Assembly (NCBI GenBank): GCA_907163375.1
Contig: CAJQUW010012964.1
Coordinates: forward strand, 310,001-374,000
Length of the DNA: 64,000 nt
Direction: 5' to 3'
Origin: Prostheceraeus crozeri
Taxonomy: Eukaryota; Platyhelminthes; Polycladida; Euryleptidae
In this document: positions 3,527 through 61,484 of the stretch, piece after piece
Numbering within the stretch: the first letter of the stretch is position 1
Layout of the letters: each line of letters opens with the position of its first letter
The notes under the pieces: model-generated
What the model saw: only the letters and a program-made list of their open reading frames with translations
What the model was told of the DNA's origin: nothing
Database searches by the model: none
Made by a program: the position numbers and the translations under genes

Positions 3527-3623
3527 TGCTGTTGCCGATTGAAGATGCGTTGGACATTGGATTCGATTTTAAGTCACATTTTCTACTGCCTCTATTTGTC
3601 AATAGGGAGCTTTCCGTATTCAG
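3527..3623 (+). CDS. Gene 1 exon with start codon and signal peptide
   Basis: A pyrimidine-rich acceptor (TTCTTTCTTCCAG) precedes 18 nt of 5'UTR and an ATG at 3545. The 26 codons read MRWTLDSILSH, then a hydrophobic core IFYCLYLSIG, then SFPYS: a plausible cleavable signal peptide. The exon ends at 3623 before a GTGAGA donor, in phase 1, as is usual for signal-peptide exons of extracellular modular proteins. The acceptor implies an upstream 5'UTR exon that I could not locate. A LINE ends about 70 bp upstream, apparently inside that 5'UTR intron. The matching exon of the paralogue (47354-47461) has the same layout: acceptor, short UTR, ATG, signal peptide ending near SIG-F, phase 1 donor. Confidence 0.65.
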
Positions 3624-3899
3624 GTGAGAAGAAAATTGTACGAAAATTATGTGTTAGACTTTCAACTTCGTATTCAAGAGATGAATACAAGATTTAATTA
3701 AAATAATTAATGGAACTGCAAGCGTTTCTAGCTTATTAGCCATTATTGCCTCTTGTGCCCGTGCACTATAAACCCTATTGCAAATAATTGGTAACTCAGA
3801 TGTAGATGTGTTATCATCAGAACTATAGACTTCAACAGTCAAAGAAATAATTCAAATTTCGTTCTCAGATCTCCGATTCAAATTTCAATCTTTCAAATG

Positions 3900-4341
3900 C
3901 CTAGGTGCCATGCTTGATACACGCTCGGGCGATCATGCTTCTCCACCTTGAACGGTTCCGAGCACAGCTGAAGATGGCTGAGCGGTCCAGGTATGTCGTT
4001 TGTTGTCATCCTCTCGATCGTCTTCCTTCATTGCGACCCTCTTCGGCCTCCACCGCGAATCCGCAGCGTTTGTACAATATCAACTCGAACTGGTGCCTTC
4101 TGATTTCAGTATAGATTTCTAATCAATTGCATGTCTTTTCCATCTGCTCCGACATCTCGAAGAAGATTGATGACCTTCTCATGACGAACTTTGTCAAATG
4201 CTTTGACACAATCGATGAAGCAAAGGAAAACATTCTGCTTGTGTTGTATAGCTCTTTCGCACAGCATTCGTAGTGTAGAAATTGCGTTGGCAGTTCCTTT
4301 GTCTGGCATAAATCCGAATTGTTCGCCGGTATAATATGCAT
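3900..4341 (-). mobile_element. decayed LINE fragment (RT palm and C-terminal end)
   Basis: Minus-strand frames at 4341-4106 give TANAISTLRMLCERAI and FLCFIDCVKAFDKVRHEK, the palm motif of an endonuclease-type non-LTR reverse transcriptase. Beyond 4090, broken frames give a C-terminal end typical of the same group (RNRSRWRSMIARA). The catalytic YADD region between them is missing, so the copy is internally deleted. It sits in the first intron of gene 1. Confidence 0.75.
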
Positions 4342-4772
4342 GTATATCTAACTTAAATAACGAGGTAAAACTGCAGATATTTATTACCCTTTCATGCTCA
4401 ATAATATAAATCTGGTTATCTCAACGATGATGGTAGCATCATTGTCAGCACAGGAAGATCTAGCAAGGTATTTCTGTTACTAGTCAAATGGGAACGCCAG
4501 AGCTTTGTCAATACTAGTTCTCGTTAACCTATCCATCGGTTTGGTAGGCTGTGATAAAGGATGCACGAACAGAAGCACTGAGTTGAAGAGGAGCTTCATG
4601 TTGTTGGTCATATCGATTCAGTTCCGTCGGGAAAATGAATTGTGCTGCTCCGAAGCATGACAACAATGCCTACCCTCCTTGTGTCCTTTTTTCTAGCTGT
4701 TGCTTGTTTATCGACCTCCAATTCGGCCGATCGTAAGAGACCAATTCCTGAACTCCAAGACTTTTGAAGTCG

Positions 4773-4994
4773 TCATTCACCACGTTTTCCAGTTCCTCTT
4801 TTGCTATCCACGTAACTTCTTCTGATCCACTCCGTCTCATCTTTTCTTACCACGTGGCTAAACCAACGTAGTCTTCGCCTTCTCGCGACGTCTGACCCAT
4901 TGGCGATGGTCTCAAGACCCATTGCTTTACTGATGCTGTCATTCGATTTCGTGTGCGATAGGCTGACACCAAACATCCACCGTAGCATTTGCAT
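4773..4994 (-). mobile_element. LINE C-terminal fragment
   Basis: The minus-strand frame reads MLRWMFGVSL and RRRLRWFSHVVRKDETEW, the conserved C-terminal RLRWFGHV-type motif of endonuclease/RT LINEs. In minus-strand sense it lies upstream of the palm fragment at 4106-4341, the wrong order for one intact element, so it is a separate insertion or a rearranged copy. Confidence 0.7.
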
Positions 4995-5861
4995 CTCCGA
5001 CGATCAAGCATTATTTCATGGGTTGAATGCAACACCTAGCCAATACTTGCTACCTTATAGCATAACTGTAATACACAGACTTCATGTACACAGCTCTTGG
5101 TTCTCAAAGGTGGTCCTTTGGACGTCAAGCAGGCAGTTCACAGAATTTTTAACCATGCACATCTTATTCTTGACACTATTGCTTAATCAATGCCACCAAG
5201 CTATCATGAACGTCCCCAAGACAGTAGAAACTGGTCACACACTTAAGGTGAGTTCCCTCCTTGTCGACGCATTTCACAGGCGAATCAACGTCCCGGTTTG
5301 GACTTGATGTTTGGGAAACTAAGTTGTAGCTCTGCTCAGGTGTCTCCTCACTCACTGTGTTGCATCCCGCAATGAACTCATGTCATATAGGAAGTGCACT
5401 GACACCAACTGGATTCATAGACTCATATTCATGTAGAACTGCACTCTTATCTATCATTGATGTTACGTTAAAGGTTATCATACAGTTGTTTCCAAAAACA
5501 TGGCAACATCAGACATTTGAGAAAATTACTTTCCACAGTAGGTCAAAAATTTGACCTTCCAGTGGTCCAAATTCAATGATTTATCGTGAGAAGTTTGAAA
5601 AGGCACTGCAATTTAATTTAGCTCTCAAGTCCTGCAGCCCTCCTTTAAGAGAACCGTAGTAAAAACCGAAAGTCAACAATACAAAAGAACCGAATTCCGC
5701 CCTCCGTATGTATAGTGTTAAGAGATGATCTACTAATTTTAGAGTTTTCTTGCTTAGAATTGATGATTTCATTGTGGATATCACACCAATTTGTCTCGTC
5801 TCCCCAGGAATACGTTTGCTGCTAAAAAATATTTACACTTTATCGCTAAAAACTATTTACA

Positions 5862-5898
5862 CGCCCGAGCTTTCGCGAGTCGGCTCGCATTCTCAAGG
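5862..5898 (-). other. hairpin-GAAA motif, copy 1 (hammerhead-like, degenerate)
   Basis: Minus strand: CTTGAGAAT, a perfect 5-bp stem GCGAG/CTCGC with loop CCGA, then GAAAGCTCGGGC. The order 'CTTGANGA-like / stem / GAAA / G+C-rich arm' recurs near 42346 and 62850. It resembles a hammerhead ribozyme core, but the CUGANGA box is imperfect, so catalysis is doubtful. Confidence 0.3.
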
Positions 5899-6097
5899 AA
5901 TGAGGGCACGTTCAGCGTCTGGATATTTCGTGTCGTCGATTGAGTGCTGGTCAATACATTATTTTTATGATTGGCTTCTGAAAGTAGAATTGATGAATTT
6001 TCGATGGTTGAATGATGCATCGATCTTTCATTGTTAATTTATCAAATTCTTCAAATGATCTTTTACTGATGCATTCAATTATTCCTTTCATCTACAG

Positions 6098-6260
6098 TCT
6101 TTGCTGAATCAATTTCTACAACGAATTTCGATATCACGCGCGAAAATGCAAGCATTGGTAATGAGACAACGACGCAAATGTCATCAACGACTACTTCACC
6201 ATGCAATCTTGACTGCAATTATGGCGAATGTGTGATTTTAAGTCATGGACCGCAATGCAT
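6098..6260 (+). CDS. Gene 1 exon: Ser/Thr stalk and first half of the EGF-like module
   Basis: The acceptor is CATCTACAG and the donor GTAAGT, a strong consensus; it enters in phase 1 and leaves in phase 2. It encodes residues 27-80: a Ser/Thr-rich linker (SISTT, NETTTQMSSTTTS, with sequons at ENAS and GNET) and then EGF cysteines 1-4 in the pattern C-x3-C-x4-C-x8-C (CNLDCNYGEC, then HGPQC). The split codon after cysteine 4 is completed by the next exon. The paralogue exon 53150-53357 ends at the same point with the same donor, so the gene structure is conserved. Confidence 0.75.
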
Positions 6261-6424
6261 GTAAGTGATAATTTGTTTAAAATTTTGAAACCATCAAAGA
6301 TGCTACTGTTATTGTATTCAGTATTTTATATATCTCATTCATTTATGTTAAGTATGTAATGTTTCGAGTAATGAAGCTGTTGACAGTTCAGCTTTAAAAA
6401 TGTATATATGTCCACAATTTCAAA

Positions 6425-6515
6425 ATTTTCGTGGATATAATATTATATTTTTATTATATTATATATAATAACTATATTATAATATATTATATTTATATAT
6501 ATTTGTATTTATGCC
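6425..6515. repeat. AT-dinucleotide-rich low-complexity tract
   Basis: Imperfect TATA/ATAT runs lie in the second intron of gene 1. Nothing else is visible in them. Confidence 0.7.
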
Positions 6516-9045: not shown

Positions 9046-9110
9046 ATGCTTTTCCGGAGTTCGAGGAGAATTTTGTGATCAGGTACATGGTGGAGCAAAT
9101 CGCCGGCGAT
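9046..9110 (+). CDS. Gene 1 exon: second half of the EGF-like module
   Basis: The acceptor is ATATTTCCAG and the donor GTGAGT; it enters in phase 2 and leaves in phase 1. It encodes an Ile completed across the junction, then CFSGVRGEFCDQ, which supplies EGF cysteines 5 and 6 with the usual G-x-x-C ending, then a short basic linker (VHGGANRRR). Together with the previous exon this makes a complete six-cysteine module (spacing 3-4-8-1-8). It lies only 72 nt upstream of the membrane exon. The paralogue equivalent is 60345-60394. Confidence 0.7.
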
Positions 9111-9182: not shown

Positions 9183-9261
9183 TTGCCTCAGCAAAGATAA
9201 TTATTCCAGTCGTGATTGGAATCATCGTCGTTATAGCTGTGATAGGATACATAATCTACAG
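9183..9261 (+). CDS. Gene 1 exon: transmembrane helix
   Basis: Preceded by a pyrimidine-rich acceptor (CCGTCTTTTTTACAG) and followed by AG|GTGAGA; it enters in phase 1 and leaves in phase 2. It encodes ASAK and then a 21-residue hydrophobic run IIIPVVIGIIVV-IAVIGYIIY ending at a split Arg codon, a single-pass membrane anchor. The paralogue exon 61409-61484 has the same phases, almost the same length and a matching start (IVIPVVIA). Confidence 0.75.
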
Positions 9262-9646: not shown

Positions 9647-11130
9647 GTAAAAGACAATTTAAATACGGCAGGAGAGCAAAAATAACTGGAGACTCTGATT
9701 CTTCAAACAATACAGTCTCATGCTTTCTTTATTTTTTTTACTTTAACTACTTTATTTAAATTGAACAAATAGCAAAAATTGTGCCATCGTTTAAAGCACA
9801 TTCTGCAAAAGTATGATAAAAAATCTTGGTGGTTAACGCGGAGGCAAGAGGAGACTTTTTAACTTTATGACTTTCACTTGAGATTTTTAATCATACTCAT
9901 GCTTTCTTAATCCTCTGTTGAAATACATTTTGATCTTGTCACTAATACAAGACAAGAAAGTGTACATTCGGAAATGAAGAAAATCATAATATTGCACGAA
10001 TATAAATTGACAACATTTTAAGTGAAACGACAAGCATGAGAGTTTAGGGCGATTCAGCTAAATGAAATGAATAACGTCACGACATCCTCTATACAAGACA
10101 TATTGGTTAAGACATGATGATGAACCAGTCTCCATACGAGGCTAAATATTTGAGAGTCAGTTAATTTACTACAATTCACACTCATGCTTTTTCCTCCATT
10201 TTCTCCATTTTGCGAGTGCTGAATGTGGGCCAATATCGAATATATGCCTGAAGGCGCTACTCCACGCATCTCCATCTTGAACGTCGATGCGCCCAAGCAA
10301 AGTTGTAACCTGGCCTGAACACGATTGGAGCACTACTGTTGCCTACCGCACCTTTATGAAGTTAAGTATATTGATGCAAGAGTGAATGTGGCCCTTGGGC
10401 TAGGTCATTATCTCTTCAGTAGTTGTCACGAAATGAATTTGTTGTCCGTAGATGCTATCTGCTCAGACGAAATCAGATCGAGCTGCTGACATCGCTACAC
10501 TTCAAGCTATCGTATTTAGTCTGGACACATATTACATGTAGCACTAACATTTTGTATGATTCGATTTGCTATATCATCAATGGCTTCATTATGATGCTAT
10601 AATATAATCTATGTAAATTAATGCTATTAGTATTAATGAATTAAGTTAATATTAAATTATTAGTTAATTAAGCTTTAATAATTCCAATTTATACATCAAA
10701 TCCACGTACGAATGATGATACATGTGGTTGAGGGCAATTACATGTATATGCATTGTCTTCTTTTTCTACATCGGTGATAGTATTAAGTCATGTGGTTGCG
10801 GAATATCACGCAAGTTTATGAGACAATTAGCCGGCTTTCGAAAATCCCGGTTGCCCCTGTTTGTGTTTTTGTGTTTCACGAAAACAGTTGCAGTTATATA
10901 TTTTGTTTATAATGATGGGCATATCGGCTATACGTGACTGCTCTGGGTAATCCGCGTAGCATGTTGGCAATATATTCTCAGAGATACGCAGTTAGCATAT
11001 TAAGCGGAATTTCGACTGATAATCAATAAATTTCACTTTAAATACACCACTGACATGTCGCATAAGTTAGTGCATCTGTAATAATTAATAAATGCTGTAT
11101 TTTGCAAACACAATGTAAATAGAATGATGA
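9647..11130. other. gene 1 intron 4, first part: no confirmed exon
   Basis: No confirmed exon or repeat seen. An isolated signal-peptide-like frame at 10722-10773 is listed separately. Confidence 0.4.
10722..10773 (+). CDS. possible isolated signal-peptide exon
   Basis: An ATG opens MWLRAITCICIVFFFYI, a signal-peptide-like stretch, and meets a GTGATA donor in phase 1, the layout of the two other signal exons in this window. I found no partner exons, and it lies inside gene 1. It could be an alternative first exon, a relic of a third paralogue, or chance. Confidence 0.15.
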
Positions 11131-11215
11131 AACATTGAGTTGCATCCTCAGTTGAAAAATTGGAGCAGACCTGAATAGCTGCCACTACATCCCATATCAG
11201 GAATCATCACCACGC
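11131..11215 (+). repeat. intronic segment homologous to 61654-61735
   Basis: ATTGAGTTGCATCCTCA and GACCTGAAT plus surrounding bases match, with few changes, a segment at 61654-61735. Both lie downstream of the membrane exon of their gene (about 1.9 kb and 0.17 kb). This is either retained intron sequence from the duplication of the two paralogues or two copies of one dispersed repeat. Confidence 0.6.
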
Positions 11216-11881
11216 CTAGTTTACATCTCCCACAACATCGACAGAACTCCCTCTTTAAAGTAACAGCCATGCACGGGTAAATTTGCAATTAGCATGTTAG
11301 TGAATGTTCTCACTCCATCATTCATACAGCATCGCCGTTGGTGCTTAAACAATAACAGTGACAGAGACTCATTCGGTGAAGTTGTCAGAAAAAAGAACAG
11401 CACTAAGTGAGGAATTCTTTCTTTCTTAATTCGTGGTGGACTCACAAGTGGGTTTGACGATGCCCTATGGTCGAGTCAAGCCACTTCGTTCAATGTCTCA
11501 TTCATCTCAGTCAAGAGCTCTTGCCTACTTCTCAGGTGCGACGCCAGTCGTCTTTTGTGTTATTTTCCTCACCACATCCTCAGCACTGGCTGAAGGAAAT
11601 CATCTTAACCAATAGGCTTTTCATTCAAATGAATTGACCGCTCTTCAAACATAAATCTACAGAACAAATTGCTTGATAAGAAAAATACCAAAGTCTGAAC
11701 AAAGAGTCTGTAGATTTCACTTACCGAATCATAGAATTCAGTGCAATCATTTTGCAGCGACTACTAAAAATATTCTTATGGATATCAGTAGGTAATTTTT
11801 TGGATTTTTTTCTGACATATATCTTTTGCTATATTGTTTGGAATATTGTTTCTAGATACTCATATATTACTTCCGTCTTAC

Positions 11882-28911: not shown

Positions 28912-31521
28912 ATGGAACACCTGCCGTCAATCTTTCTGTCGAATGTTCAATCAATTCACCGAAAGCTTGATGATCTTTTATGTTATAGCAATACACTTTC
29001 GCCTGATATTATTGCTTTATGCGAAACGTGGTTAACGGAGTATACTTCCGATGAGGAAATCGCCCTTCCTAGATATGGTGCACCTTTCAGATGCGACAGA
29101 TTGGATCGTCGGGGCGGAGGAGTCTGTATATACATCAAGAATTATCTAAGAGCGGACTAGTTATTCCTGAACCGATGCCCAAACACTGTTGAATGTAAGT
29201 GGTTGTCTCTACTGAAATGGAACATTGTTTTGCTGGTTATTAACGCACCTCCAAATCTTGTAAAGAGGCAATACACCGAAATCGAGGAATATGTGATTCA
29301 GTCTGCAGAAACCCTCCTGGATAATTCGAACTCGTCCAAACTGATTATCTGCGGTGATTTAAATCAGTTACCGTGTTCCTCTATTTATCACACGCTGGGA
29401 CTGCGGCAAACAGTCAACATGCCAACAAGACAGAACTCAATCTTAGATAAGATCTTGATCGACTGCTCACTCATGCATCGGTATAATGAACCCATCATTT
29501 GTCCAAATTTAGGTAAATCGGATCATCGCAGCGTGTTCCTGGAGCCACTAACTGGTATGTCGACATGTAAATCGGTGCATAAAGTAATGGATTTACGTCA
29601 AAGTAACATCGATGCGGCATTCACGTTTCTCAGCGAATACTCCTGGCACAAATTCTACCTAAATAACAATGGTTTGGAAGATAAGTGCGAGATGTTTTAC
29701 TCAATAATATCGGAAGCAATATCGACTATACCATACACATTGGTAGAAATGCATGACAATGATCGACCGTGGATGACCCCAAAGCTAAAGCATTTAATCA
29801 ACTTAAGTTATGAAGCATTCCGTACATATCAATATTCGAATTATGAACATTATAAAGAAAAAGTCAGAAAAGAAATTACTCAAGCAAAAGAAATCTGGAA
29901 ATTAAAAATTCAAAGGTCAAAGACTGATATGTGGAAGGCAGCCGATATGTTCAGTGGAAAGAAACTCGTTGCTGACAACGCATTATGCAGAATCATGAAT
30001 AAATTCCATTCGAGCTATGAAGCAGCTGACGCTATGAATGAAACTTTCGCGAGAAATTTCTCAGTGCCTTCAGGCTTTTTGGAAATTGAAGATAAAGTCA
30101 TATCTTATGCCAGTAATCAAGTGTGGCAGCCGAACATTGACGTTGCAACTACCTTTCACTATCTGTCCAAGATTGATGCCAAGAAGGTCAGCGGCAGTGA
30201 TGGAATACCCTCTCGCTTCATCAAGGATTGTGCTTCTGTGTTGGCGCCTCCTTTGACTCACATGTTTGCCCTATGTCTAGAGAACTTTGACCTCCCAAAT
30301 AAATGGAATTTAGCGTCAATTATCCCTGTACCAAAGCCTCGAGCAAAGACTGTTGCTGACCTGCGTCCGATTTCCCTCACTCCTATCTTTGCAAAAGTAC
30401 TGGAGAGAATCCTGATTAATTCCATCAAACCCTGTCTCCTGAATGCTTATGACGATATCCAATACGAATTCAGACCACACTCATCAACACTAAGCGCCCA
30501 CATCAGAATGCATGACCTAATTACAAAAGAACTGGAAAAGCCCGATATAACAGCTGCATTACTATCTTTGGACCTCTGTAAAGCATTCGATCGACTATCT
30601 CATACATCTTTGATCAATAACCTAATGTCATCTAATATACCAAAATCATTTGTGCAAATGTGCGTTGGATTTCTAAGAAATCGTCGTGAACAAGTCGTCC
30701 TTCGTCGTCAGCTTATGAGCGGTATAGTGGATGTATCATCAGGTGTTCCGCAAGGGTCAGCTCTTTCCCCTTATCTTCTCGCAATTCATATCAGTTCATT
30801 GTCGCCATCTCTTCCATACTCGCATATCATCAAATATGCTGATGACATTCTCTTTGTTCTAGCATTTACTGATCCGTCTTATGTGGAAGAATCCATACGA
30901 TCTGAAATCGAGAACACGAGACAATGGTGCACTCATAATGGACTGCGCATTAATGAGACGAAGACGAGTGTCATGGTTATTCCTAAGAGTAAAGTGGATG
31001 TTCCTCTTTCAAACATGTGTTTCTGCGAAGAGATGAAAATCCTTGCTGTCACAATACAATCAACCCTGAAATGGACTGAGCATATTAATCAGATAGTGAA
31101 GAGAGCTAGCAGCCGTTTATATGTCATTCGCCGACTCCGAGAGTGTCTATCTAAGGAACAGCTGATTTTGGTACACAACGCATTTATCCGGAATGTATTG
31201 GAGTACAACTCCCCTTTATTTGTCGGTCTAGGTTCCCAGGACAACAGGCGACTCGAAAAGGTACACGAAAGGGCGCACCGGATAATGTGTGGTCCATCAT
31301 GTGAATGCGGTGAATTCACTCCTTTACATATTCGACGGAACCATCGAGCCATGAAGGTTTTCATGGATCTAAGTAACAGTGATAATATACTACACGATAT
31401 GTTTCCGAACTTTCATCGTTTCTCGCGTCATGTCATCATGCCACCGTCTAGCACACAACGACGAAGTAATTCGTTTATCCCCTTTTGTAGCTCTATGTAC
31501 AATCGAATGTATGCTAAGTGA
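28912..31521 (+). pseudogene. LINE ORF2: endonuclease-reverse transcriptase with one in-frame stop
   Basis: A single frame of 870 codons with one TAG at 29158-29160. N-terminal APE-type endonuclease: LSNVQSIHRKLDDL, CETWLTE, DRRGGGVCIYI, then after the stop ICGDLNQLP and KSDHRSVF, so the expected Asn, Glu, Asp and His residues are there. Reverse transcriptase: KVSGSDGIPSRFIKD, ADLRPISLT, LSLDLCKAFDRLSH (first Asp), SGVPQGSALSP, IIKYADDILFVLAF (catalytic Asp pair), MKILAVTIQSTLKW. The ATG at 28912 follows the ORF1 stop by 17 nt. In life the protein nicks target DNA and reverse-transcribes its own RNA; the stop in the endonuclease probably prevents this here. Confidence 0.9.
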
Positions 31522-44329: not shown

Positions 44330-47300
44330 TTTAACAAATGAACTGGTAAGGCAAAGAGAATCCATTTTGAGAGCTGTTTTTCTGTAAATTTGGCCAATAA
44401 TTCATTAATTTCAAAGGAAGTATCACTGACTCGAAATGATACTTATTCATATTCATATATCCGAACTTTCTGCTTCTACATGTACGTGTAAATTGTAAAG
44501 GTCGTGAAAATGGAAATTACCGGAAACTGCCGTCATAATGTATTCCACATTCAATGTTGAAGCAAGTTAAGTATACTACTGAAAAATCTTTACTAGTAGA
44601 CGAATTGTTCAGTACTTTTTTTGATTCCAGAACTGACAGAACTTCACGCCTGTTCGCGGTAGTGTCATCAAATCTTGGCTCTTTAAGACTGCATTATCAA
44701 ATTAAATCATGTTTTCATGAATGGTGTGGTTATTTCACAGAAAGTCTGATCTTAGCTGTTTTAGATATGAAGCTCTCTAATTTCACGTTCTCATCACAGC
44801 TTCAAGTATTTGCATATGTATAAATGAATGTGGCCTACATGGCGACACTTGCTGGTGAATCTGTGAACATGCACATAAATATAGCTTAAGTACCTATAAA
44901 TCATGCTGACTTCCTACCCAATACAATCTACGAGTTGGTGCTACATGCATCACATGGTGGGCAGTGGGCAGAGGGTTTCATTCTTTAGTCTTCAACCACA
45001 ACCTAAAATGTCACTGAGCTAGGGAGAAGTCCTACCAAGAGTGCACATCACAGCACCAAGAAGCATATTGCTTTGTCTAGTCCCGCCGCTTGGAAGAGCA
45101 TGGGACCACACAATCGAGGGAAAGGCAGAAAATAAAGTTCCTCCAGGCATTGTTTAGAATGCAATTTGGAAATAGACGTTTCAATAAGATTGTTATGTCA
45201 GATGTTTCTTGCATTGGGATCGATCACAGAGATGTATTCGTTTGTCGCGGTTACTCTAAGGGTGACGCGATTCTATCTCAGCTATTGTATGCAATGTGGA
45301 GAGATTCGTATTCCTTTGGCTTACGTGATTGGCCAAACGCGCGCAAAGCTTAAGGAAAGTTATATTAGGAAACACACGAACTGCGGTTGTCACAATTAGG
45401 ATTGAGCATCTGCCAAGTGAACAGTTCTTATCTTTGACTCCATGTTTCTCTGTGATCAATTCATCAAATGGAGATATTATTCACACCGTTCGAATCCCCA
45501 CGATCGAAATGTACTGACTGTGTACGTTCAATGTGGTGTCAATGATCTAGTTCGTCAGAATTCAGACTCCAGTTTGCATTTCGTTGAATGGAAAATTGTT
45601 TTTCTTGCCCTTTGAGACTACTTCTAAGCGTGATCATCAGTATTGAAAAATGTCCTCTCTATACCCAAACACGCGGACAAAGCAATTTATCTCTGTGGGA
45701 TTGATATTGCGCATTCTCAAATGATTGCAGTTATAATTTTCATGCATTATCAAGTCAATTAGATTATTGATTATCTTTTTATCAACCCTTTAGGTGCGAT
45801 CAATCAATGTTGCGCCAAAGACAAGTGCAGAGTTGGAACCGGTGCCGACTTTTGACTGGTAGGTTTTTGGATTGATTGAGCTTTCACATGTCTCTACAAG
45901 GTCAAAATATAGCAAGGTGCAAAATAGTAAATCTTGAAACTTTGAGAAGTTTGAGGAATATCTATGTTCATCATGTTTCCAAGTTTCCTGTAACCTCGCT
46001 TTTCACACGGATTCTGCCGGTTTAAGGGACACTCTGCCGAAGGGGCACCATTCGATCAAGCCACTAGATATCGTTTCAAAGAGAATAGCAAATGATGTTG
46101 TATCTTCTCTTCTTTTGATAGCGGATTTTTTTGAGACTTGTGCTACCTTCAATCTGGATGTATATCTTTCTAGGCTGTTTAATCATCGAGCGGACTTTAA
46201 GAGTTGCGAACAGGCCTATAGGATTGATATTATTAAGTGTAACTGTACATATGTAACATTACAGTTTCGCCGAATAGACACAGAAATAATCTAACTCCTT
46301 GAATGAATATACGAGTACATTTAGTTGTAGCCCTACTTTCATTTTATGAGTTGTGGACACTCAATGTTCTTCGCAATAATGTGGTTTCATGCTTTTTCTG
46401 TTAGACAGCAATAGAGCATAGGCATAAAGTAAAGCCGGTCAAACCGGTCCGATTGTGTGACCGGTACTAACAGACCGGTCATTGGCACCGATATGCGGGT
46501 TTCAACCCTACACCATTACCGGATATGGAACAAATTTGGCCGTGATGTTCAGTCATCCCATCATCTGCATCTTTAGGCTATAGACAAAGATTTTAAGTTT
46601 AGACTTTCAGAAACGCAGTTAAAACCTACATGCAGTTATGAATGATTCACAGTCATTGTTCATGTAACTTAATTTTAAACATGTAGATTTAAAAACTCGA
46701 TAATGCTCCGTTAGACTTAAGAGATTAAATTAAATTGACAACGCAGAGTAATATGAGGCTGTAGTTAACTAATAGATAATCAAAGGTTTTCTATTCTCGC
46801 AATAATTCCTCATATCTAAAGAATCCAACAAATATACCGTCACACCGAAACGATTCCTTTTTGATCAAGTACCTACCACAGCTCATTGAGATTTCGCTAT
46901 AGTGATGAAAATGATGAAATTTTGTAAATATATGATATGAATTGGCAATTCATGTAATCCTGCTTATCCTACTCGATCTGGAAATATTTAGACTGCATAC
47001 AACTTTCGAGACCAATCAATCATGTGTTTCGATTGATAATGACTGATAAATTCACTATCTATATCCACGGATTTTACACACAATACATTGTTCTCAATTA
47101 CAACAGTGTCAGCAAGTGTGACCGGTACTCCGATGAAGGAAATGGTTTCACATTGAATTATTACAAATTCATGTAATTTTGCCGATTCAATGACCAAATG
47201 GACCGTTATCAGAATTATTGAACAAGTCGACCTGAAGCGATAAGAGGAAATTGATAAGCTACCTAGCAGAAACCCATCTTCACATTGTTTCACCATCAGG

Positions 47301-47353
47301 TAAAGATTTACCGATTAATCTGATATACCACTTGAATTCGAGAAGTCTTTCAG
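44330..47353. other. no gene recognised; ACCGGT-rich patch near 46470
   Basis: Only chance frames. At 46434-46500 the sequence GCCGGTC / ACCGGTCC / ACCGGTA / ACCGGTC crowds four CCGGT palindrome-like motifs into about 65 bp. This may be a decayed transposon terminus with subterminal repeats. Confidence 0.4.
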
Positions 47354-47461
47354 GTCACATCGAACAGACAGACGGCTTCATGGATCTCTCATTGGTTTCA
47401 CCGGCATACATCGTCAAGAGTTTCTTGTGTGTTGTCATTTCAATTGGATTCTCATTTTGTG
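47354..47461 (+). CDS. Gene 2 exon with start codon and signal peptide
   Basis: The acceptor is GAGAAGTCTTTCAG, followed by 26 nt of UTR and ATG at 47380. It encodes MDLSLVSPAYIVK, then the hydrophobic SFLCVVISIGFSF, then Cys, and a G|GTGAGC donor in phase 1. This corresponds to gene 1 exon 3527-3623 in layout and phase, and both hydrophobic cores end in S-I-G. The frame is open upstream, but the acceptor and the signal peptide favour this ATG. Confidence 0.65.
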
Positions 47462-47469
47462 GTGAGCAG

Positions 47470-50400
47470 AATATTGAAGCTTAGATGAGAATAGAAAAAG
47501 CGTTAGATAAGTCAGTGACCTAAGCCAGTCCGCGGTTCACAGTGCGTTTCATGTTTTCAATGAAAGTCCTTTTGACTTGACACGCTCGGGGAAACAGAAA
47601 CGTACGGTCTCTTCGATAAAAAATTACTCTAAAACCACGATGGGCCTCGGCGTCCTGCGCCTTCTGAGGTCGATGTTAACGTCTGTAAATTTCTGTTTTC
47701 TCGGGATTGTCCAGGCAAAATGACTTTCATTGAGAAACGTGCAGTATCCAGGAGATTTGTCAATTACGGTTCATATTTGAATTTCCCACGCACTGAAATC
47801 TTCCAATGTAAACTGAATCTTTATTGTGACCTCCGACAACATTTTGCGAAACATAAAGCTCTTTACAATTTCTTTAGTGAAAGGTCTTGTTTTCAATTTT
47901 GTTTATGTAGAATTTATGATATGGATTTTATTATAATGACCTTAATTGTTTTAGTTATTACTGGTATTGATTTTGCTCACAAAAATTAATATGCTGAACA
48001 AAATATTGTAAAAAGCGCTGTTAAAGCAACAAAAGTACGTAAATAATCAACACATGATTACAGCAATGGCAACATCGCGAGATGTATAACAGTGCAATTA
48101 ATTTGCAAAATACACCGAACAAGAAGTTAGAACTGCAAAAACAGTAATGAAATTGATAATAATGTGATTCAAACACGATCAAAGCATGATTGCAGCAATA
48201 AAAATACGTCATAAAAAATGAGATCCCGAACATTGGCACCAATCCAAGGGTTTTTAAAACAAGCGCATGACGGCAACCTTGAAAAATAGTAGCGGGCCGA
48301 ATGTTGCCGATTATCTTATTAGACATCCAATACCAAGAAACAAAAAGATCTCATAATCAAAAATAAGGCGAACTCGAAGGCGTGGATGATGGCATATCCT
48401 TTCGAGCTGTTGCGAGATTGTGCTACTCAAGTCCCTATTTCTTGACGCTCTTCTCACCACCAGGCGTGTTTTGGGACAAGTGAGCGGGAAGATTAGGAAC
48501 TATTTCGCGAAAGCCACGTTCATTAGAGAGGAGATTCAAACTGATCAAGAAAAGGAATATTGAAGTGCTGAAGATCTGGGCACTTGCTCTGCCTACTGAA
48601 GAAAAGATGCAAAAGAACGAGAAGATTTAGTTATCCGACGAACACTTCAGCGATTTTTTGTCTCAAAAAATTGAAGCTTAGAAGCCTTTGCAAAAGATTC
48701 TGTTCTCCTTCTCAAGCAACTTCAATGCCATCAATGTGTCTTTATCAGTTCCCAACAAACAATCATCTCAAGATATTATAATACGCAGACGGCACTTTTG
48801 AAGATCATTAGTGATGTGCTTACTGCGATGGATGATGGTAACATCACACTTTCTTCATGTTCCGACCTATCATCTGACCCGACCAATTTAGATCCGAAAA
48901 GCCATTAGTGATATCTTGCTGATATTCATATGACCTCAAAGCGATCGCGTTACAGACATGCAGGTAATTTTAGAGCTCTGAGAGACCTATTAAAACTCTG
49001 TAGATAGTCTTTAGGAAGGGAATTCACCAATATTCATTTGTATCTTATTGCACTACATTTTCACATAGTCTACATCAGCGGCCGGAGACTGAACACATGC
49101 AGGATGGAAAATAATCTGAAAACATTCCATGCTAAATATTATGTCTAATGACTTAGCTGGTACTTTCCACTTAAGACTTTTTATGAGACATGAGTCGCAC
49201 AGGGAGCCATGAAAGCTTTGGGGGACTGATTGAAGTCTCTAATTTTAGTCCTTGGGTAAATTCACTTTACAACATCTGTCAAAAAACGTGTTTTCCGCCC
49301 GTAAAATCCTTCGTTCTGAAGCGATTTGCATGATTAGCATCTCCTCGTTTCGGTCATGATAAATTCAAATTAATCCAAAAAAGTTTTCTTTACGAAAAAT
49401 TTAGCTCAAGGCAGAAAAACTACCATAGAAACCTATCTACAACATAGGTACTCTATCTTAGTGAAGAAATTTCGCTTGATCTACTTAGATTATGCAAATG
49501 AAGTTATGTGTCATGTGATGGCGCATGAACCGTAGTTTTAACCCGACTATAATTCATGATCGCATTTACATTGATTTGGGATTTTTCTTCAATTAGCCTT
49601 TGTCCCCCAAAAATTGTCTTCTGACCGATGCATATTTCTCAACTTAGAAATGATGTTTTCGCATTCCGTAAACGGCCTTTTCCGTATAAGTTTAGTTGTT
49701 GTATCAAAAAGAAAAATCAACTATGGATCATCACAATTGAGCAATTGTGAATTTTAAAAAAATGACCTCTATTATTTCGACCAGACTTCTTTGATTTTTC
49801 TCAAAATTTCAATTTGATGCTGAAGCCGCATTTTTTATTCGGATCTCATGCAAACCATAATGTAATCATGCATGCGAATTTTATGAAGAGACAATGACTA
49901 TCATTTTTAAAATCTCGTAAAACACCCAAAATGTCCCAAAACGAGACCACAAAATTATAGGTCAGAAGACACTTGATAATATATATTGCAAATGCAAAAC
50001 TTGTAAGGATACTCATTTAGTGTGGTCGCCACTATGATTCTTGAGTTCAGCGTGAGAAATTGACCCTATATTCAAATTTTCAAAGAAAACGAGGTTGCAA
50101 TGTTGAAAAGACAAAACTGCCCAAAATGTCATTATATAAAATGGATTTGCCCCCTTACCACGACAGCTTTTTGCGTTTCATCAGATGTACAAATAATTAA
50201 TTCTTCCAGAGTGATACATTGCTAATCAAAAAGAGGTATTTTAACCAGACACATCGGCCACAGTGACAGGGTTTTTCATAAACTTTAAATCAAATCAAAG
50301 TCAAATAAACGTTTATTTCATAATATATAAATCATAGCCTCCTTTGTGAGAATCGAAGAGACTTGAATACATTTATGATACAAGTGTTGCAATGAAGCAT

Positions 50401-52729: not shown

Positions 52730-53149
52730 GACTAGACAGTGAACTACACAATTTCCGCCGAAGATTCTTCACAGCTTTGGAATACACTGATGTGTAACTA
52801 TGAGAAGAGAGGCTCGTTGCAACCCTAGAATAAAGCCGTTAACAAACCCTTGCTACCGTCCTGTTTCTGCTCGGTCCCGACCGATTGCATGTCACCGAGA
52901 TTTGACTGACCAAAGGATGAGACCCAAAGCCCATAACCATGATAATGCTCAATCCTACTATTTGCTAGAAAATGAACAGTAATGATAAATGCACGGATGA
53001 CTCCAGCTAGAATGATGACGGAATTGAATCTAGGGATGGGGTGGTTCAAAAATCAGATAATATGACTAGCCTACTACGTAGGCCTAGGGGTAATTGCTTT
53101 TTCTACAAAATGTCAACAAATGTATTGCAAATTCTCAATTATTCAACAG

Positions 53150-53357
53150 AGTCTGCGACCGTTCCTTCAACTACAACCCCAACGACATCGACAACATCAC
53201 TCAGAGCATCATCGGCAACACCATCATTGACATTATCTGCATCAACATCCACAAAATCTTCTGCAGCATCAACGACAACAACAGCTCGACCGTGCACACT
53301 CATATGTCTCAATCATGGGGTGTGCTACTTTAATTATTTCGGAGAAGAGCGCTGTAT
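53150..53357 (+). CDS. Gene 2 exon: mucin-like stalk and first half of the EGF-like module
   Basis: The acceptor is TCAATTATTCAACAG (modest pyrimidine tract) and the donor GTAAGT; it enters in phase 1 and leaves in phase 2. It encodes 68 full codons: ESATVPSTTTPTTSTTS, then further Ser/Thr/Ala-rich sequence to STTTTARP, then CTLICLNHGVCYFNYF and GEERC, EGF cysteines 1-4. The NHGVC pattern is typical of EGF modules. The dense Ser/Thr run predicts mucin-type O-glycosylation. Ends at the same EGF position and phase as gene 1 exon 6098-6260. Codon choice (ACA, ACG, TCA, GCA) makes this a near-simple repeat, prone to length change. Confidence 0.75.
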
Positions 53358-54361
53358 GTAAGTGATGTCTTTGAAGCTATCCATCTAGCATTCCTTGAAA
53401 TTCATTGAAGCACTATCATGGGTATACTTAACTTTCAGCCCAAAAACTAGCACAACAACTTCATGCAGGACGAAAGGCAGCGTCTAATGCTGCCAAGGAA
53501 TTGTTGTACTTAAATTGTTCAAGTTTGAGGACATCTTTCTATTGATTCCAATTTCACTAAAATTGTTTATCTTTTTCTCGGCGTCGTTCGTGATTATGAC
53601 AAAGTTTTGTGTCTGTTGCACTTATTAACATATCACAGATCCTGTACATACTATATAACTTCATCTTTTTTTATTTTTATCATAATCATGAATTTTCATA
53701 ACTTTTTATCACCAAAGAAATCGCTCAGCATGATAATGATTATGCTGACAATGATTACAGAATACATATTTACAATCTTTAAAAAAACATTCATTGTGGG
53801 TGTCAATTTGCAAATTATTTTGAAATGTGAAAAGTTAGTCTTACATGTATACGGTGATTTATTGCCCGCGCTTCCTCCTTTGTTCACAGGCTATGAAGTG
53901 GAACTGAAGGGACAAACACTTGATTGCACATCATGGCAGTTATCGGTTAAGCAATGCTAACAAATGTCATAGGTTGAAGAAAAGAATGCACTACGTGTGA
54001 TTTATCCGCAAAGGTTTATTGCTAAAAATATGTACATACGCTCGTACAAGAGACAGTCGTTTCGTGACACAGTCGCAGCCTCAGTGTCTAGTAAAGATCG
54101 TGCAGAATGTTCCCAACAAATCAGCGAGTGTGCTTTGATACGGCCTGTGTCCAGTCACTGAGACGAGAGCATCTCTCAACCGACCAGCTCGTGTTTCCGG
54201 TTTAGATCTGGGATCCTATCTCGTATGTACATAGCTTCTTTTAGACGAGATTCTATTGGTGATTTGCGTTTTTCAAGAAAGTGGAGGTCAAACGCAAATG
54301 ATATTTACCTGAAAATATTTCTTGAAAAACACGACTGCACCAAAGATAACCCCATGGAGTA

Positions 54362-54789: not shown

Positions 54790-56115
54790 TACATTTTTCA
54801 AATTAAATTGAAATCATTGTATTTGATTATGTGGTTTTGCTCTGCCAGTGGCAGGTTGCCTGTGATATGATGACGCTTAAGAAACTCTTGAGGTTGAGCA
54901 TGAAAGTAATAGGAACCCATCGAATTGCTAATTTAACAAACATTTAATCTCTAAGACTGTCATGACACTGAGAATCTGTAAAATACCATCATTCCTTCTG
55001 CATTACAATCATGATCATTCAATTCCGAGGCAATTTCTTCAGAACTGCAAAAATTTGCATATCTCACAATTGGTAACAATTACCACCTACATCACCCCCA
55101 CCCCCGAGTTCATTTAATAAAATCGAAAGTGTATACACATTGGGGAATTGATAAATGCGGAGTTACTACTCCACCTAATATACCAACATTACGGATGATC
55201 TTCAACAGAAAATGAAACATAAATTGACAAAATGAAGGGGCGAATAGAGGAGAATTAAGTGAAAATTTGCATGGCGATAGAAATGTAGAAATGTAATTTC
55301 ATTTGCAAAACTGCCATGATCAGCGAAACTGAAGCATGATATCATACTGAAAATTGATAAATTAATACGAAAAAGAATATCAGAGTCAATGCAACTATCA
55401 AATCTCCACGAATCAATGCAGGCGCTTATTGATCTTTAGAGAGCCAGGTAGCAGTCATTTGGGGTCCCTCGGAAATCTGAAACAGGATCCTAAGTCTATC
55501 AAAACAACAAAATAGAATAGAGCTTAAAATTTCAAACATTTCAGCAGTCAGGGTAAACTGTAAGTCACAACCACGTCAGATGTATCTTACTATCCACTCA
55601 ATCTACGCAAGCCACTCCTGTAATACTCAAATGCACTTCTCTTTCATGTAGGGAGTTTAAAAGTGTGGATAACAGGATAATTCTGACTTGGATAGAAATA
55701 ACTTGGTACTTGCAAAAATCTATCACAATCTGATGTAGACAATATAAAAGCCTGAAACGTAGATTTTTGCATTTACTTAAAATTAAAGGAATCGTGAGAA
55801 TTCAAGCATTCTGAAGATATCCACATACAACCGTAGGCGAAAAAACTACTTTTGTTGTTCAACAGATGCAATGAGATTTTCTACTCACTTAATGAGTCGT
55901 TGCAGCACCACTGAAAAATTTGTGTTTAACGCATTTAGTAAATGAGAAGCTTGAATAATTTAAATTTGAAGCCTTATATCAATGAGAGACTTTTTATCTC
56001 TGAACTCGTACTGCGTTCTGCATCATTAACACATCAAAAGTGACGTCCATAAGCACATACTTGTACGTGAATAGTACTGATTTAGGAATGAATCATTCTG
56101 AAATACTTGAATCTA
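54790..56115. other. gene 2 intron 2, middle part: nothing recognised
   Basis: AT-rich, no supported feature. Confidence 0.4.
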
Positions 56116-56442
<327 letters not shown>

Positions 56443-56688
56443 TTAAACCCCTGTTTCATAATTGACATGGATTTGATTCACGATTGACTAAAATTATAGA
56501 GACCTGGCATTACATAATAGTGTATAAAGTAATATCTTGTCTAGCGTTCAACATAGTGTTCTGGTTGCATTGAAATTTGAAATTTGCTGTGATATACTGT
56601 CAAAGGCATTTTCCTTCTGTTTATGCCCTGTTACAGGTAGCTGTGGTTGTATTGCATTGGGAGACATAGAACAAGGCTCTTCAATATA

Positions 56689-58209
56689 ATTGGTTTTGAT
56701 ATTCTATCTAGGATTTATATTTCATTCCATCACTCTATAACTTGAAACAGAAGGAATCCACCTATGACGGATCACAGATCATAATTTGAAGCTAAAAATT
56801 GGGGCTGTGCGCAGTGCACCGGTTCTTCTGTTTGCATCGGTTCTCGGGCCGGTGCACCGAAGTGCATGAATTTCGATTAAATTGATATTTTATTATAAAA
56901 TTTCAATAACAATTAATTCATTTTATCTGTTATCTTAGTCACAGCAAATTGGAGAGAAATATTTTAAGCATCTTATATAATTTATTCAAAGAGGAGAGAA
57001 CATTGCTGAATTATTTTTATTAATTCTATTCAAACTTAAAATTTCTGTGTTATGAAGATGAAACTTTTTGAATATCACTGTTATGTCATAAGATAGCCGA
57101 TGCATTTCATGATATCGAGTAAAAATGTGAAAAAGTGACGTTCATGTTCATGATGAATCATTTTAAGTCACGAAATTTCAATTCCCGCGACTTCAGAAAT
57201 TTGGAATCTCATAGTGAATACTGCGCAACCTGCAATTGCTCCTTTTCTAAAGATTTAGACTAATTTGGTATTCCAGCGCCAGCTATCCGTCCAAAAGACT
57301 TTTTTAGGCATCGAGTCATGTCGAGGTGTTGACACTCGTGCATATTCATTTGCAGACAAAGGTGACATTGCTTCGAATCTATCTCCACTTCATGATGTGT
57401 TCAGGTACTTCGGAAAAAAGTAAAAAATAATCTCTACCATTGATATATCTTTAATTTTGAACTAATCAATTAACTCGACATCTTGTCTGCCACTGACTTA
57501 GTGATGCAGTCACTGCTATTTTGTGTTGCATATCTGTATGAATTCTGTTTCAACTGCTTTTAAAGAATTCCATCAGAGCTGTCATGGAGACATGGGTTAA
57601 GTAAGATGAGAGTCACTTGCAAGGATTGGCAAAATCAAATTTAAGGAAGACGATGTAAATCTGTTTCAAATTCTTTCGCACTATTGGAGGATTTCATTGC
57701 ATTGATTTTTAGAAAATAACAACATCAATTATGAAAGATCGTGAAGCTTTAATTGACTGTTACACGGCAATCTAGAGCGCGAAACAAATTATCTTTTGTC
57801 GGCTTTAATAACTGCTTCAGTGCAGCTTTTTAAATTTTTCGGTGCACCGGTGCAAGCAGTACGGCTAGCGCACAGCCCAACTAAAAATACTTCAGTCAAT
57901 ACTTGCATGAAATTGCTGACATATTTAGAACATGACTTGATGCCGGAACAGCCGATAAAATCTATTAATTAAGAGGATTCCTATTACTAAGAAACAGCTA
58001 ATTTCAATAAGTCATTTTGCTTGAAACGAATTTCGGTTGTTGCGCCACCAAGCCATATTCTAAAGTTGCCAGCTATTTCATGCGAGGATTGACTGAAGTA
58101 GTTTTAGCTTCAAATCATGATCAGTGATCCGTCATAGGTGGATTCATTCTGTTTCAAGTTAAATAGAGCTTGAATGGAATATAAACCTGGAAAGAATATC
58201 AAAACTAAT
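56689..58209. mobile_element. MITE with ~150-bp inverted repeats, split by a nested hAT
   Basis: Left end ATTGGTTTTGATATTCT to GAAGCTAAAAAT (56689-56799) and right end (58050-58209) are inverted copies, sharing ACTTGAAACAGAA and CCACCTATGACGGATCAC. The left arm continues after the nested insertion at 57889 (ACTTCAGTCAATACTTGCAT), matching the inner part of the right arm. Without the insertion the element is about 440 bp with no coding capacity. Confidence 0.85.
56800..57880. mobile_element. nested non-autonomous hAT element
   Basis: Ends TGGGGCTGTGCGC and GCGCACAGCCCAA are inverted repeats. A perfect 8-bp target duplication CTAAAAAT flanks it (56792-56799 and 57881-57888). Subterminal GGTGCACCG motifs occur on both sides. 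1081 bp, no transposase frame. It interrupts the left arm of the host MITE, so it is the younger of the two. Confidence 0.9.
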
Positions 58210-58377
58210 GCCATTCCAAATAATGCACAGTAGGTCAATTACCCTAAAAATTACTAACTCCGAAGCCTAAATTCTTTCAATATTTCGGATTATAACTCAG
58301 AACAGAACTACAGAAATAGTAGTTCTGTAAACAGAAATACTACAGATATTGAATTAATTTTCAGTCATGCAAGACAA

Positions 58378-58575
58378 TTGATTTTATCAGATCCTTCGAC
58401 GTTCACGCGGAGAACTGGTAGATCTGCAACTGCTTATCAGAAAGCTAGGCATGCTCATGCCCAATATCCTTGCTTCTTCTGTGGGGATGACTATTCAAAT
58501 CCTCCAAATGAGGACTGGATGCAATGCTGGAGCTGTCATGAAGGAAGCGCCAAGTACAGTGCTAGACATGTGTGA
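58378..58575 (+). pseudogene. Cys-rich zinc-finger-like fragment, probably transposon-derived
   Basis: The frame reads KARHAHAQYPCFFCGDDY, then SNPPNEDWMQCWSCHEGS and stops. C-x2-C ... E-x-W-x-Q-C-x2-C-H is the pattern of PHD-like fingers found at the C-terminus of some DDE transposases (pogo/Tigger type) and other TE proteins. It is cut off after the fourth Cys/His. No surrounding domain seen. Confidence 0.3.
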
Positions 58576-58739
58576 CACCTGCCGTGGATCATGCCTTATC
58601 CGGCAGAGTTGTTGTATGCCATCTGTTATCAATTGTTTATTCTGAAATTCACTATTTGGACTCCATGAAATCAATATGAATCTTCATCCTAATCTCACTG
58701 TTGATTACTTTTCTTCCTTTTACACTCGGGTAGGCCAAT

Positions 58740-59605
58740 CCTCACGAAATTCCTCATACATATTTCATAAACATTTTCTCATACATATCTCATGAAATTA
58801 CACGCGGATTTGGAACGTTTTCGCATGAAATATCTCATCAAATTTCATGACTTTCTCATGAAAATCTTATCAATAAATTAACAGTTGCCTTTTCATGTTT
58901 CTGAACTCATTTTCCTGGCATTTAGTTATTGCGGCTTTCTTAGCCTAGCCACGTTGCGCCCCAGAGCATTCCCATGTCATGTCCAACATATTATTTCAGC
59001 ATTCGCAATAATAGACAATTTCTGATCATGATATTGAACTGTGATTGTATATAAGTCTATTTTCAAAATCTTGCATAGTAATGGCAAATGTAAAGTCCAA
59101 TTACATATACACTCCTTAGCAAAATTTATATTGCATCACTACAACTGTTGAAATATCTCAGTGTCTGCAGCCACTCAGTTAATTTGATTGCAAAAGTATC
59201 ATACATCATCTGAAAGGTATTGATCTCCTCTTGGGGATTCACTATGATTATTGGCTGCATCTTTGAACGGTTGTCTACCACATAAATGATGTTACAGATC
59301 GCTATGATATATTCTATATTTTTGCTTTTTGTCCTATGTATGATGCATGCCTACTAGACTAGCATGCATACCTTACTACTTATCAACTAATTTTAACAAA
59401 ACTTCATGAATGCTTATGATTTCTCCATGAACGCATCATGAGATATTATCCTCATGAAAGTCCTCATTATCACGCATCATATTCTCATCAAAGCATCATG
59501 AGAACATCATAAATTAAATACTTTTTTGTGAGAATATCATGAGACTCATAAAAATCTCATGAATCCGCATTAAATTTCATGCGTTCTCATGAAAAATGTT
59601 TCGTG
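58740..59605. repeat. two clusters of degenerate TCATGA repeats
   Basis: At 58740-58880 and 59400-59605 the words CTCATGAAA, ATCATGAGA and related TCATGA palindromes recur about a dozen times, separated by an unrelated ~520-bp spacer. The paired layout suggests the ends of one decayed transposable element with internal repeats. Confidence 0.5.
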
Positions 59606-60043
59606 CTTTAATAATAAGCCCTGTTTGGGCGCATTTTTGTCCGTAAAGTTTATAGCAATTGGTTGGAGCTCACAGCAGTTTATAACATACTTTGGTCGTA
59701 TAGTACAGTTACCAATATGGCTTATTAGTTCTGTTGATAGCATAAATGCGATACGAAATACATAAATCATTTCATGATTTTTCTCGGTGGGTACTATTAC
59801 TCGCACATAAACGGTAAAGCCTTATGTCCTCAGCAGCATTGTCTTAGCTATGTACGAGTATCAATAGTCGAGCCCTTATTCAGTCATTTTGATTAATTAT
59901 ATTGAGTAGAATGATAAAGCGAAAAAAGGCTAATCGAAATACCAATAAATGATTCATAGAGGTAGCTAACCTTTGGGGTGCGACAATAACCCTCTTCCTG
60001 GTGGATGTGCATCGAAGGTCTGCCGATCAGCTGCTTAGCCACT

Positions 60044-60112
60044 GAAGGAATTAATCTAAATGTAGATTCTAAGAAGGAATTAATCTCATGTAGAGACTAA
60101 GAAGGAAAATAG
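60044..60112 (+). repeat. short tandem duplication
   Basis: A unit of about 30 bp (AAGGAATTAATCT...ATGTAGA..CTAAG) occurs twice in a row, followed by a partial third. Confidence 0.65.
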
Positions 60113-60344
60113 CTATTTTTTGAAATTTTACCTTTCTATCGATGAAAAATGTCCCATGATCAAATTGACTGACTGAAGATTGCCTGGTTTTCACTCAATT
60201 GGTTATATGATAACAAAATTTACATCAACAACAATCTCTGGAGGTAGAAGTCGATATGGTAGCTGTATTCCGTGTTTATTATTCTGTTTCTGATTTCATT
60301 TTAGATTCTTACAAACACACTGCAAACCTTTTTTTTAATTTCAG

Positions 60345-60394
60345 GTGCCCTTCTGCGGACTATACTGGTAATGTGTGCGAAACGTTGAATAGAG
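60345..60394 (+). CDS. Gene 2 exon: second half of the EGF-like module
   Basis: A pyrimidine-rich acceptor (CTTTTTTTTAATTTCAG) and a G|GTGAAT donor; it enters in phase 2 and leaves in phase 1. It completes Met97 and adds CPSADYTGNVCETLNR, with EGF cysteines 5 and 6 and the aromatic-Thr-Gly-x-x-Cys ending. 15 nt shorter than the gene 1 exon because the basic linker is reduced. The donor is weaker than the others; the frame stays open beyond it, but phase matching to the membrane exon favours this site. Confidence 0.65.
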
Positions 60395-61408
60395 GTGAAT
60401 ACAACAGTAGAGTAGAAACATTTTTTCAGATACTAGGAAGACTGCTCACTCATGCTATATCTTGAATATAATCGCTGTGAAAAATCCCACTCTTCAGGGG
60501 AGAAACTGATGTAGATAATCAGGTGGTTACGGGATCGAATTTCATCACGAGCACAGTTTTGCATAGCTTTTTGATTAAAAATAATTGGTGAAATGAAATT
60601 ATTCTTTTTAGCAGATGATGGAAAAATCTACACTGTACAAAAAATATAGTACTAATCGGGGAAGTTCTTAAAAGATATTCCTTAAGTAGCTACTAGTCCA
60701 GAAGACATAGAAAAATTGTATTTTATTTCTTACTGTGGTTCTCTTACAAAAACATAGTAAAAGCTGTCCGTTGACATAGAACATTTGTGAATATAATAGT
60801 ATGCATTCCTCATGAATCTACTATCTTTTTCTTTTAAATATATTTGACATCTACATACCTTCCAATTCTAAAATCAAGTTTTTAAAATCGACTAAGGAAG
60901 AGTCAATGTTTTGCTGATACAATATTTTAGTGAGCGATTTCTGTTGCTTTTTGGCAAACACCATCAGATAAAAGGATATAATCCATAAATAGTTGCATAA
61001 TCCATGTAGCTATGTATCATGGATGCATCACCAGATTATTATAATTAAAGCTTCAGTCAGTTCACTTTTGCTATCGGCAAGATGCAAACGCAATATCATC
61101 TGTTGCATATTTTTTTTCTCTTCTTCATTTTCTTCAACTAAACTTTTGTTCATTTTATACAATTTGCTACGTTTCTTTGATATTATATGTGAAATTTGAT
61201 TTCTTTTTGCCTTTTTTGTCTTAACTTTCTTTATCTGGTAATGGTTGCTGAATAGTAGCTGAATATAGCTAAATACATGCATAGTGTTGCGTCAACTAAT
61301 TTTAAAAATAAATGACTAAATCAGAAATATTAAATCTCTAAAAATTGGTCAAACTTCCTCATTGCCATATTGACATCCTAATTACAATGAATTGCATTCT
61401 CGTTTCAG

Positions 61409-61484
61409 CTAATCTTGGAATTGTTATTCCGGTTGTGATAGCCGTCGCTATTTTAATGATCATAACAATTTACTTCGTTTGGAG
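61409..61484 (+). CDS. Gene 2 exon: transmembrane helix
   Basis: Acceptor CATTCTCGTTTCAG and donor AG|GTGAGA; it enters in phase 1 and leaves in phase 2. It encodes ANLGIVIPVVIAVAILMIIT and IYFVW, then a split codon. One strongly hydrophobic span with no charge. Same phases, donor and start (I-x-I-P-V-V-I) as the gene 1 membrane exon 9183-9261. The following tail exon is not identified; an acceptor at about 63099 (TGCCTTTCAG) gives a phase-compatible frame RKDEYFCATCHFV but has no other support. Confidence 0.75.

Follow-up and report, generated by a model that had tools for sequence, protein, structure and literature searches.

The question raised by this locus is which class of surface protein its two genes encode. 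The locus lies in a stretch of 64,000 nucleotides from the polyclad flatworm Prostheceraeus crozeri (assembly GCA_907163375.1, contig CAJQUW010012964.1, positions 310,001 to 374,000 of the forward strand), here called the window, and comprises gene 1 and gene 2, each predicted to encode a signal peptide, a Ser/Thr-rich stalk, a single epidermal growth factor (EGF) module and a membrane span. An initial annotation of this DNA had regarded the architecture as undescribed, had argued against a ligand of the EGF receptor (EGFR) and had suggested an adhesion or recognition receptor family that expands by duplication. It is proposed here, with a probability of about 0.45, that genes 1 and 2 arose by an old tandem duplication and encode small type I membrane proteins with the gene plan of the ErbB/EGFR ligands, and that these proteins would act as divergent EGFR-type ligands or modulators. 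The exons, their phases, the cysteines and the order of signal peptide, stalk, EGF module and span are predictions from the DNA; from these we infer the expression, glycosylation, cleavage, receptor and role of the two proteins.

A common gene plan

Each gene falls into four predicted exons (Table 1), and all eight were recovered on the one strand, with the common plan and at the places proposed in the initial annotation. In both genes the introns leave exons 1 to 4 in phases 1, 2, 1 and 2, all borders are GT-AG and the joined translation is free of stop codons. The rebuilt genes also bear out the claim that all six EGF cysteines are present in both and that the module is divided between the fourth and fifth (C4 and C5), by an intron in phase 2. 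The single module adjoins the membrane span in each gene, which is the layout of the ligand class. Counted on the predicted translations, the cysteine spacing is C-x3-C-x4-C-x8-C-x-C-x8-C in gene 1 and C-x3-C-x5-C-x9-C-x-C-x9-C in gene 2, and the sixth cysteine (C6) is preceded by Phe in gene 1 and by Val in gene 2. The stalks differ, as had been noted, with 43% Ser+Thr in gene 1 and 60% in the longer stalk of gene 2, which has no N-glycosylation sequon; the gene 1 stalk, which had been called short, is not very short.

Table 1. Predicted exons of genes 1 and 2, with positions in the window; stalks are counted from the start of exon 2 to the first cysteine (C1)
Exon	Positions	Strand	Predicted content	Acceptor end	Donor	Phase on leaving	Remark
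Gene 1 exon 1	3545..3623	+	start codon and probable signal peptide		gtgaga	1	weakest exon
Gene 1 exon 2	6098..6260	+	35-residue Ser/Thr-rich stalk with two N-glycosylation sequons, EGF C1-C4	ctacag	gtaagt	2	
Gene 1 exon 3	9046..9110	+	EGF C5-C6, juxtamembrane stretch with Arg run	ttccag	gtgagt	1	
Gene 1 exon 4	9183..9261	+	membrane span (IIIPVVIG...)	tacag	AG/gtgaga	2	
Gene 2 exon 1	47380..47461	+	start codon and probable signal peptide		gtgagc	1	
Gene 2 exon 2	53150..53357	+	48-residue Ser/Thr-rich stalk, EGF C1-C4	aacag	gtaagt	2	
Gene 2 exon 3	60345..60394	+	EGF C5-C6	ttcag	gtgaat	1	poorest donor
Gene 2 exon 4	61409..61484	+	membrane span (IVIPVVIA...)	ttcag	AG/gtgaga	2	

The window was scanned for (a) N-terminal EGF halves with a phase-2 GTRAG donor, (b) C-terminal EGF halves after a pyrimidine-rich acceptor and (c) hydrophobic exons ending in AG/GTRAG. 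The + strand gave two, three and three matches, respectively, and two complete chains, and the - strand gave none of any kind (0, 0, 0). In 200 first-order Markov simulations of the window strand, whose GC content is about 37.5%, the mean counts were 0.01, 0.085 and 0.0 and complete chains appeared in 0/200; the criteria were chosen after the genes had been seen, and these figures are a measure of rarity rather than a formal P value. A looser scan of contig positions 210001-422557 (212,557 bases) found the full exon chain, and N-terminal EGF halves with a strong donor, only at genes 1 and 2, the isolated partial matches elsewhere amounting to one weak N-terminal half, two C-terminal halves and several hydrophobic candidates.

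These results bear on the suspicion that the loci are gene-model artefacts or decayed genes, a reading favoured by the weakness of gene 1 exon 1. The best 11-residue hydropathy of that exon is 1.74, below the cut-off of 2.0 used in a scan for first exons, whereas exon 1 of gene 2 reaches 2.48. An artefact is nevertheless very unlikely, given that all eight exons are open, have GT-AG borders and agree between the genes in order and phase, that chance chains are absent from the simulations, and that frames and cysteines have survived the synonymous saturation described below. In searches of the genome, which covered 2.05 Gb in 14,165 contigs and were the only searches to cover contig positions 1-210000, the 141 bases around gene 1 exon 1 (window 3500-3640) matched only themselves. 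The first-exon scan passed four rows on the + strand and one on the - strand; two of the former are a single stretch, 4657-4732, and another is gene 2's own exon 1. The stretch 4657-4732 lies within intron 1 of gene 1 and was set aside as another first exon for that gene, its antisense reading being what we take, from a motif, to be the tail of a non-LTR retrotransposon.

Possible kinship with EGFR ligands

According to Stein and Staros (2006; PMC1618406), an ErbB-ligand gene is recognised by an EGF module that lies near a membrane span and is divided by a splice site between C4 and C5, and this criterion also fits mucins 3, 4, 12 and 17, the meprins, IMPG2 and the tomoregulins. The view that the architecture was undescribed does not hold against this published criterion (PMC1618406): gene plan and layout put genes 1 and 2 in a recognised class, and their architecture is not a new kind of molecule. 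Like the EGF-type ErbB/EGFR ligands TGF-alpha and HB-EGF, both genes have the module just before the membrane span and an intron between C4 and C5. So far as is known, this intron is likewise in phase 2 in the ligands. A paper of 2025 on Caenorhabditis elegans IGEG-2 describes the C4/C5 intron as near-invariant among EGF ligands, and reports that the overexpressed gene acts as an EGFR ligand (PMC12485627). When compared with the Protein Data Bank (PDB), the gene 1 module found HB-EGF as its best, weak match (E 0.044) and TGF-alpha at E 0.32; the former is not taken as proof because an unrelated enzyme scores E 0.031 for gene 2.

Genes of this kind have been catalogued in flatworms, where EGF ligands were listed by a single EGF module and a fitting layout (Barberan 2016; PMC4914847). 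That survey gives the congener Prostheceraeus vittatus six EGFRs and nine putative ligands, seven of them of EGF type, and remarks that in flatworms with several EGFRs the ligand set is unclear, the EGF module being short and variable (PMC4914847). The planarian genes Smed-egf-1 to -5 and -8 have a similar layout and contain introns, for which the relevant part of the source gives no position (PMC4914847). A ligand-receptor pair of the EGFR pathway has been reported from the flatworm Echinococcus, in which EmNRG is paired with EmER1 and EmER2 (PMC12963305). No published description of these two genes was found in the literature on Prostheceraeus EGF and on flatworm single-EGF mucin-like transmembrane proteins. 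The nine P. vittatus candidates could include orthologues of genes 1 or 2. The P. crozeri genome contains 25 Recep_L-domain matches, which is consistent with the presence of several receptors of the EGFR or insulin-receptor type.

A number of observations weigh against a ligand function. The C4/C5 intron occurs also in mucins, meprins and IMPG2, so it is not specific to ligands; within the ligands, the spitz genes of several other invertebrates are reported to have it, and Drosophila spitz, keren and gurken to lack it (PMC1618406). Both modules depart from the ligand spacing consensus, CX7CX4-5CX10-13CXCX8C (quoted in PMC8943033), in that C1-C2 is 3 instead of 7 and C3-C4 is 8 and 9 instead of 10-13, and gene 2 has a C5-C6 spacing of 9. 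The Arg before C6, which is near-invariant and gives way to other residues in tomoregulins, IMPG2 and MUC12 (Thr in MUC12; PMC1618406), is replaced in both genes by the residues given above. The Pfam EGF scores of 14.7 bits for gene 1 and 11.0 bits for gene 2 lie below the cut-off of 21.5, and the PDB gave 13 matches up to E 10 for the gene 2 module (best E 0.031), every one of which was named a phosphoethanolamine transferase or similar and is attributed to chance. Finally, neither gene yielded a cytoplasmic or last exon, and a homology comparison of the two downstream regions yielded no convincing pair among its best 25 rows.

Genes 1 and 2 are not filed as EGFR ligands, in view of their short C1-C2 loop, the lack of Arg before C6 and the deviating module. 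The initial annotation had argued against such a ligand on the first two of these grounds, both of which are real, but had left unused the C4/C5 intron beside the membrane span that it listed itself and that is a hallmark of ErbB/EGFR ligands. Taken together, the short first loop and the absent Arg make a divergent ligand or modulator, its contact face altered, more probable than a canonical agonist.

Retention of the intron behind the membrane exon would add Arg and a stop codon in both genes, and a protein with a one-residue tail, made from an unspliced membrane exon, is conceivable for either. The identical donor at the end of membrane exons that have otherwise diverged argues for splicing onto a further tail exon. 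One could also imagine a single transcription unit in which the ectodomain cassettes of the two genes serve as alternative 5' portions, both spliced in the same phase to one cytoplasmic exon beyond gene 2; the common donor and phase-2 exit would fit this arrangement, as would downstream regions that lack a convincing homologous pair of tail exons. It is highly improbable, however, since no tail exon was identified, the best downstream pairs were judged by eye to be repeats (the one tested is high-copy), and tails may be so short and diverged that a missing pair says little.

Membrane mucins and other EGF proteins

The membrane mucins MUC3, MUC4, MUC12 and MUC17 resemble genes 1 and 2 in their juxtamembrane EGF module with a C4/C5 splice site. 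Membrane mucin stalks are rich in Ser and Thr. The two genes might be supposed to encode short mucin-like surface proteins in which a glycosylated stalk does the work, in the glycocalyx or a mucus layer, and the EGF module is a structural stub. The composition of the gene 2 stalk speaks for this, as do the splice site and membrane proximity shared with mucins 3, 4, 12 and 17 and the Thr that MUC12 has in place of the Arg. Compared with membrane mucins, however, stalks of 35 and 48 residues are very short; they contain no tandem repeats, the long repeat domain is not found in the predicted exons, and of the 14 tandem arrays located none overlaps an exon. As the Pfam matches up to E 1 also include no SEA domain, a mucin-like nature is considered somewhat unlikely.

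No other extracellular domain, follistatin included, was found above the Pfam cut-off in either protein, and the weak matches below it were to EGF_2 and to teneurin EGF models. EGF modules of the tenascin/teneurin type share the C1-C2 spacing of 3 and are arranged in arrays. Genes 1 and 2, in contrast, each have one module, split by an intron. The tomoregulins (TMEFF1/2) come close to both genes in having a juxtamembrane EGF module that is divided by a splice site between C4 and C5 and lacks Arg before C6, yet they carry two follistatin domains (PMC1618406), of which none was matched here.

Relatedness and copy number

The proteins are 38% identical from C1 through the membrane span. The score of the EGF alignment was reached by 168 of 5000 shuffles with the cysteines held fixed, which is weak. 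That of the membrane spans was reached by only 5 of 5000, in keeping with the similarity claimed for the membrane exons, while their plain identity of 8/22 was reached by 847 of 20,000. Because the support from shuffling is limited, the case for homology of the two genes lies chiefly in their shared exon plan, phases, exon order and closeness on the contig, to which the sequence adds modest support. It suggests that the loci are old tandem paralogues on one strand. Among 61 aligned codons the residue is the same in 23. The proportion of differing synonymous sites (pS) is 0.78, which is saturated, and that of nonsynonymous sites (pN) is 0.44; the ratio of nonsynonymous to synonymous rates (dN/dS), a comparison advised in the initial annotation, is not estimable through this saturation, which points to an old duplication. 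The retention of frames and cysteines despite saturation argues that both genes have been maintained.

No third copy was found in contig positions 210001-422557 or genome-wide, but since the queries from genes 1 and 2 miss each other, equally distant relatives would escape and the negative is a weak one. The gene 1 protein gave five matches in the genome, three of which are gene 1 itself, and the gene 2 protein six, three of them gene 2 itself; the five remaining matches (E 0.10 to 7.7) were rejected as copies, since the parts of them that were inspected have no cysteines in an EGF arrangement. A motif of the membrane exons gave five genome matches (one in a backward control), two being genes 1 and 2 and the other three read as not membrane exons. 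The Pfam EGF model gave at least 140 matches from the 150 of 696 candidates that were scored, none of them on this contig. A small, diverged family of such genes may exist.

These results also concern the proposal of adhesion or recognition receptors belonging to a duplicating family. Two same-strand copies with divergent stalks are in its favour, and the open phase-2 exit of the membrane exon leaves room for a cytoplasmic tail. The expansion put forward in the initial annotation nevertheless finds no third copy at the sensitivity reached, the saturated synonymous sites speak against a recent duplication, and a single EGF module stands without any further extracellular domain above the cut-off, so that this role is unlikely. 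A 91-bp match between the 3' flanks of the two genes (11134-11222 and 61656-61744) was rejected as the trace of a duplicated block, being a high-copy repeat: window 11100-11260 had 2672 first-look candidates in the genome, of which 40 were scored and gave at least 43 matches, other copies being up to 89% identical. The same repeat lies 0.17 kb downstream of the gene 2 membrane exon.

Sequence surroundings

An open frame of 404 residues at window 2354-3568 (-) contains a reverse transcriptase domain (PF00078, E 9.4e-25) that starts just ahead of gene 1 exon 1, and this frame may contain or adjoin the promoter of gene 1. Between the genes, a 786-residue open frame at 29161-31521 (+) likewise matches the reverse transcriptase model PF00078 (E 4.7e-28) and is a long frame of non-LTR retrotransposon type.

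The region of gene 2 exon 1 (window 45915-48686) shows 95.3% identity, in an alignment of 2,847 positions with 55 gap openings, to another contig of 13,265 bases (C7340). The copy of the exon differs there in 1 of 82 bases (47432, Val to Ala) with start, frame and donor intact, and the contig ends short of the position of exon 2 if equal spacing is assumed. It is either an allelic contig, left over from the second haplotype, or a recent duplicate of this region. Window 53140-53380, with gene 2 exon 2, matches only itself genome-wide. Antisense within intron 2 of gene 2, at 56137-56442 (-), lies a histone frame (PF00125, E 9.5e-22, matched to profile position 80 of 122) that is H3-like and then departs from H3, and is probably a truncated copy. 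An inverted repeat at 56689-58209, with arms that are 88% alike over 109 bases and separated by 1.3 kb, and with a second pair inside them, suggests a small DNA transposon.

Farther along the contig, two 171-residue open frames at contig positions 279689-280201 and 289273-289785 (-), 9.6 kb apart and with seemingly one difference in their first 100 residues, are possibly a recent local duplication. Long open frames are dense in both directions at 404-422 kb, up to the contig end, and look Maverick/Polinton-like by eye. Rfam returned no matches at its gathering cut-offs, and a scan for bacterial promoters was set aside as irrelevant to an animal gene.

Proposed role and implications

As divergent EGFR-type ligands or modulators, the proteins of genes 1 and 2 would carry a stalk that is probably O-glycosylated, and would either display the EGF module on the cell surface or free it by cleavage between module and membrane. 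Hints of such cleavage may be seen in the juxtamembrane Arg run of gene 1 and in a Pro conserved near the outer end of both spans, which would suit intramembrane cleavage. The module would then act on receptors of the EGFR type. It may further be speculated that the genes are tandem descendants of an EGFR ligand that have kept the ligand plan while losing the contact Arg and four residues of the first loop, and that they now serve as membrane-tethered antagonists or as selective ligands for some EGFRs, perhaps even as cassettes sharing one cytoplasmic exon; this is regarded as a long shot.

Genes 1 and 2 suggest that the C4/C5 intron can detect genes of the ligand plan that are missed by scores of the module itself. 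Should their products be active on EGFRs although Arg is missing before C6, they would reveal to what extent the receptor-contact face is replaceable; should they not be, the gene plan of the ligands would have been re-used in another role at the cell surface.

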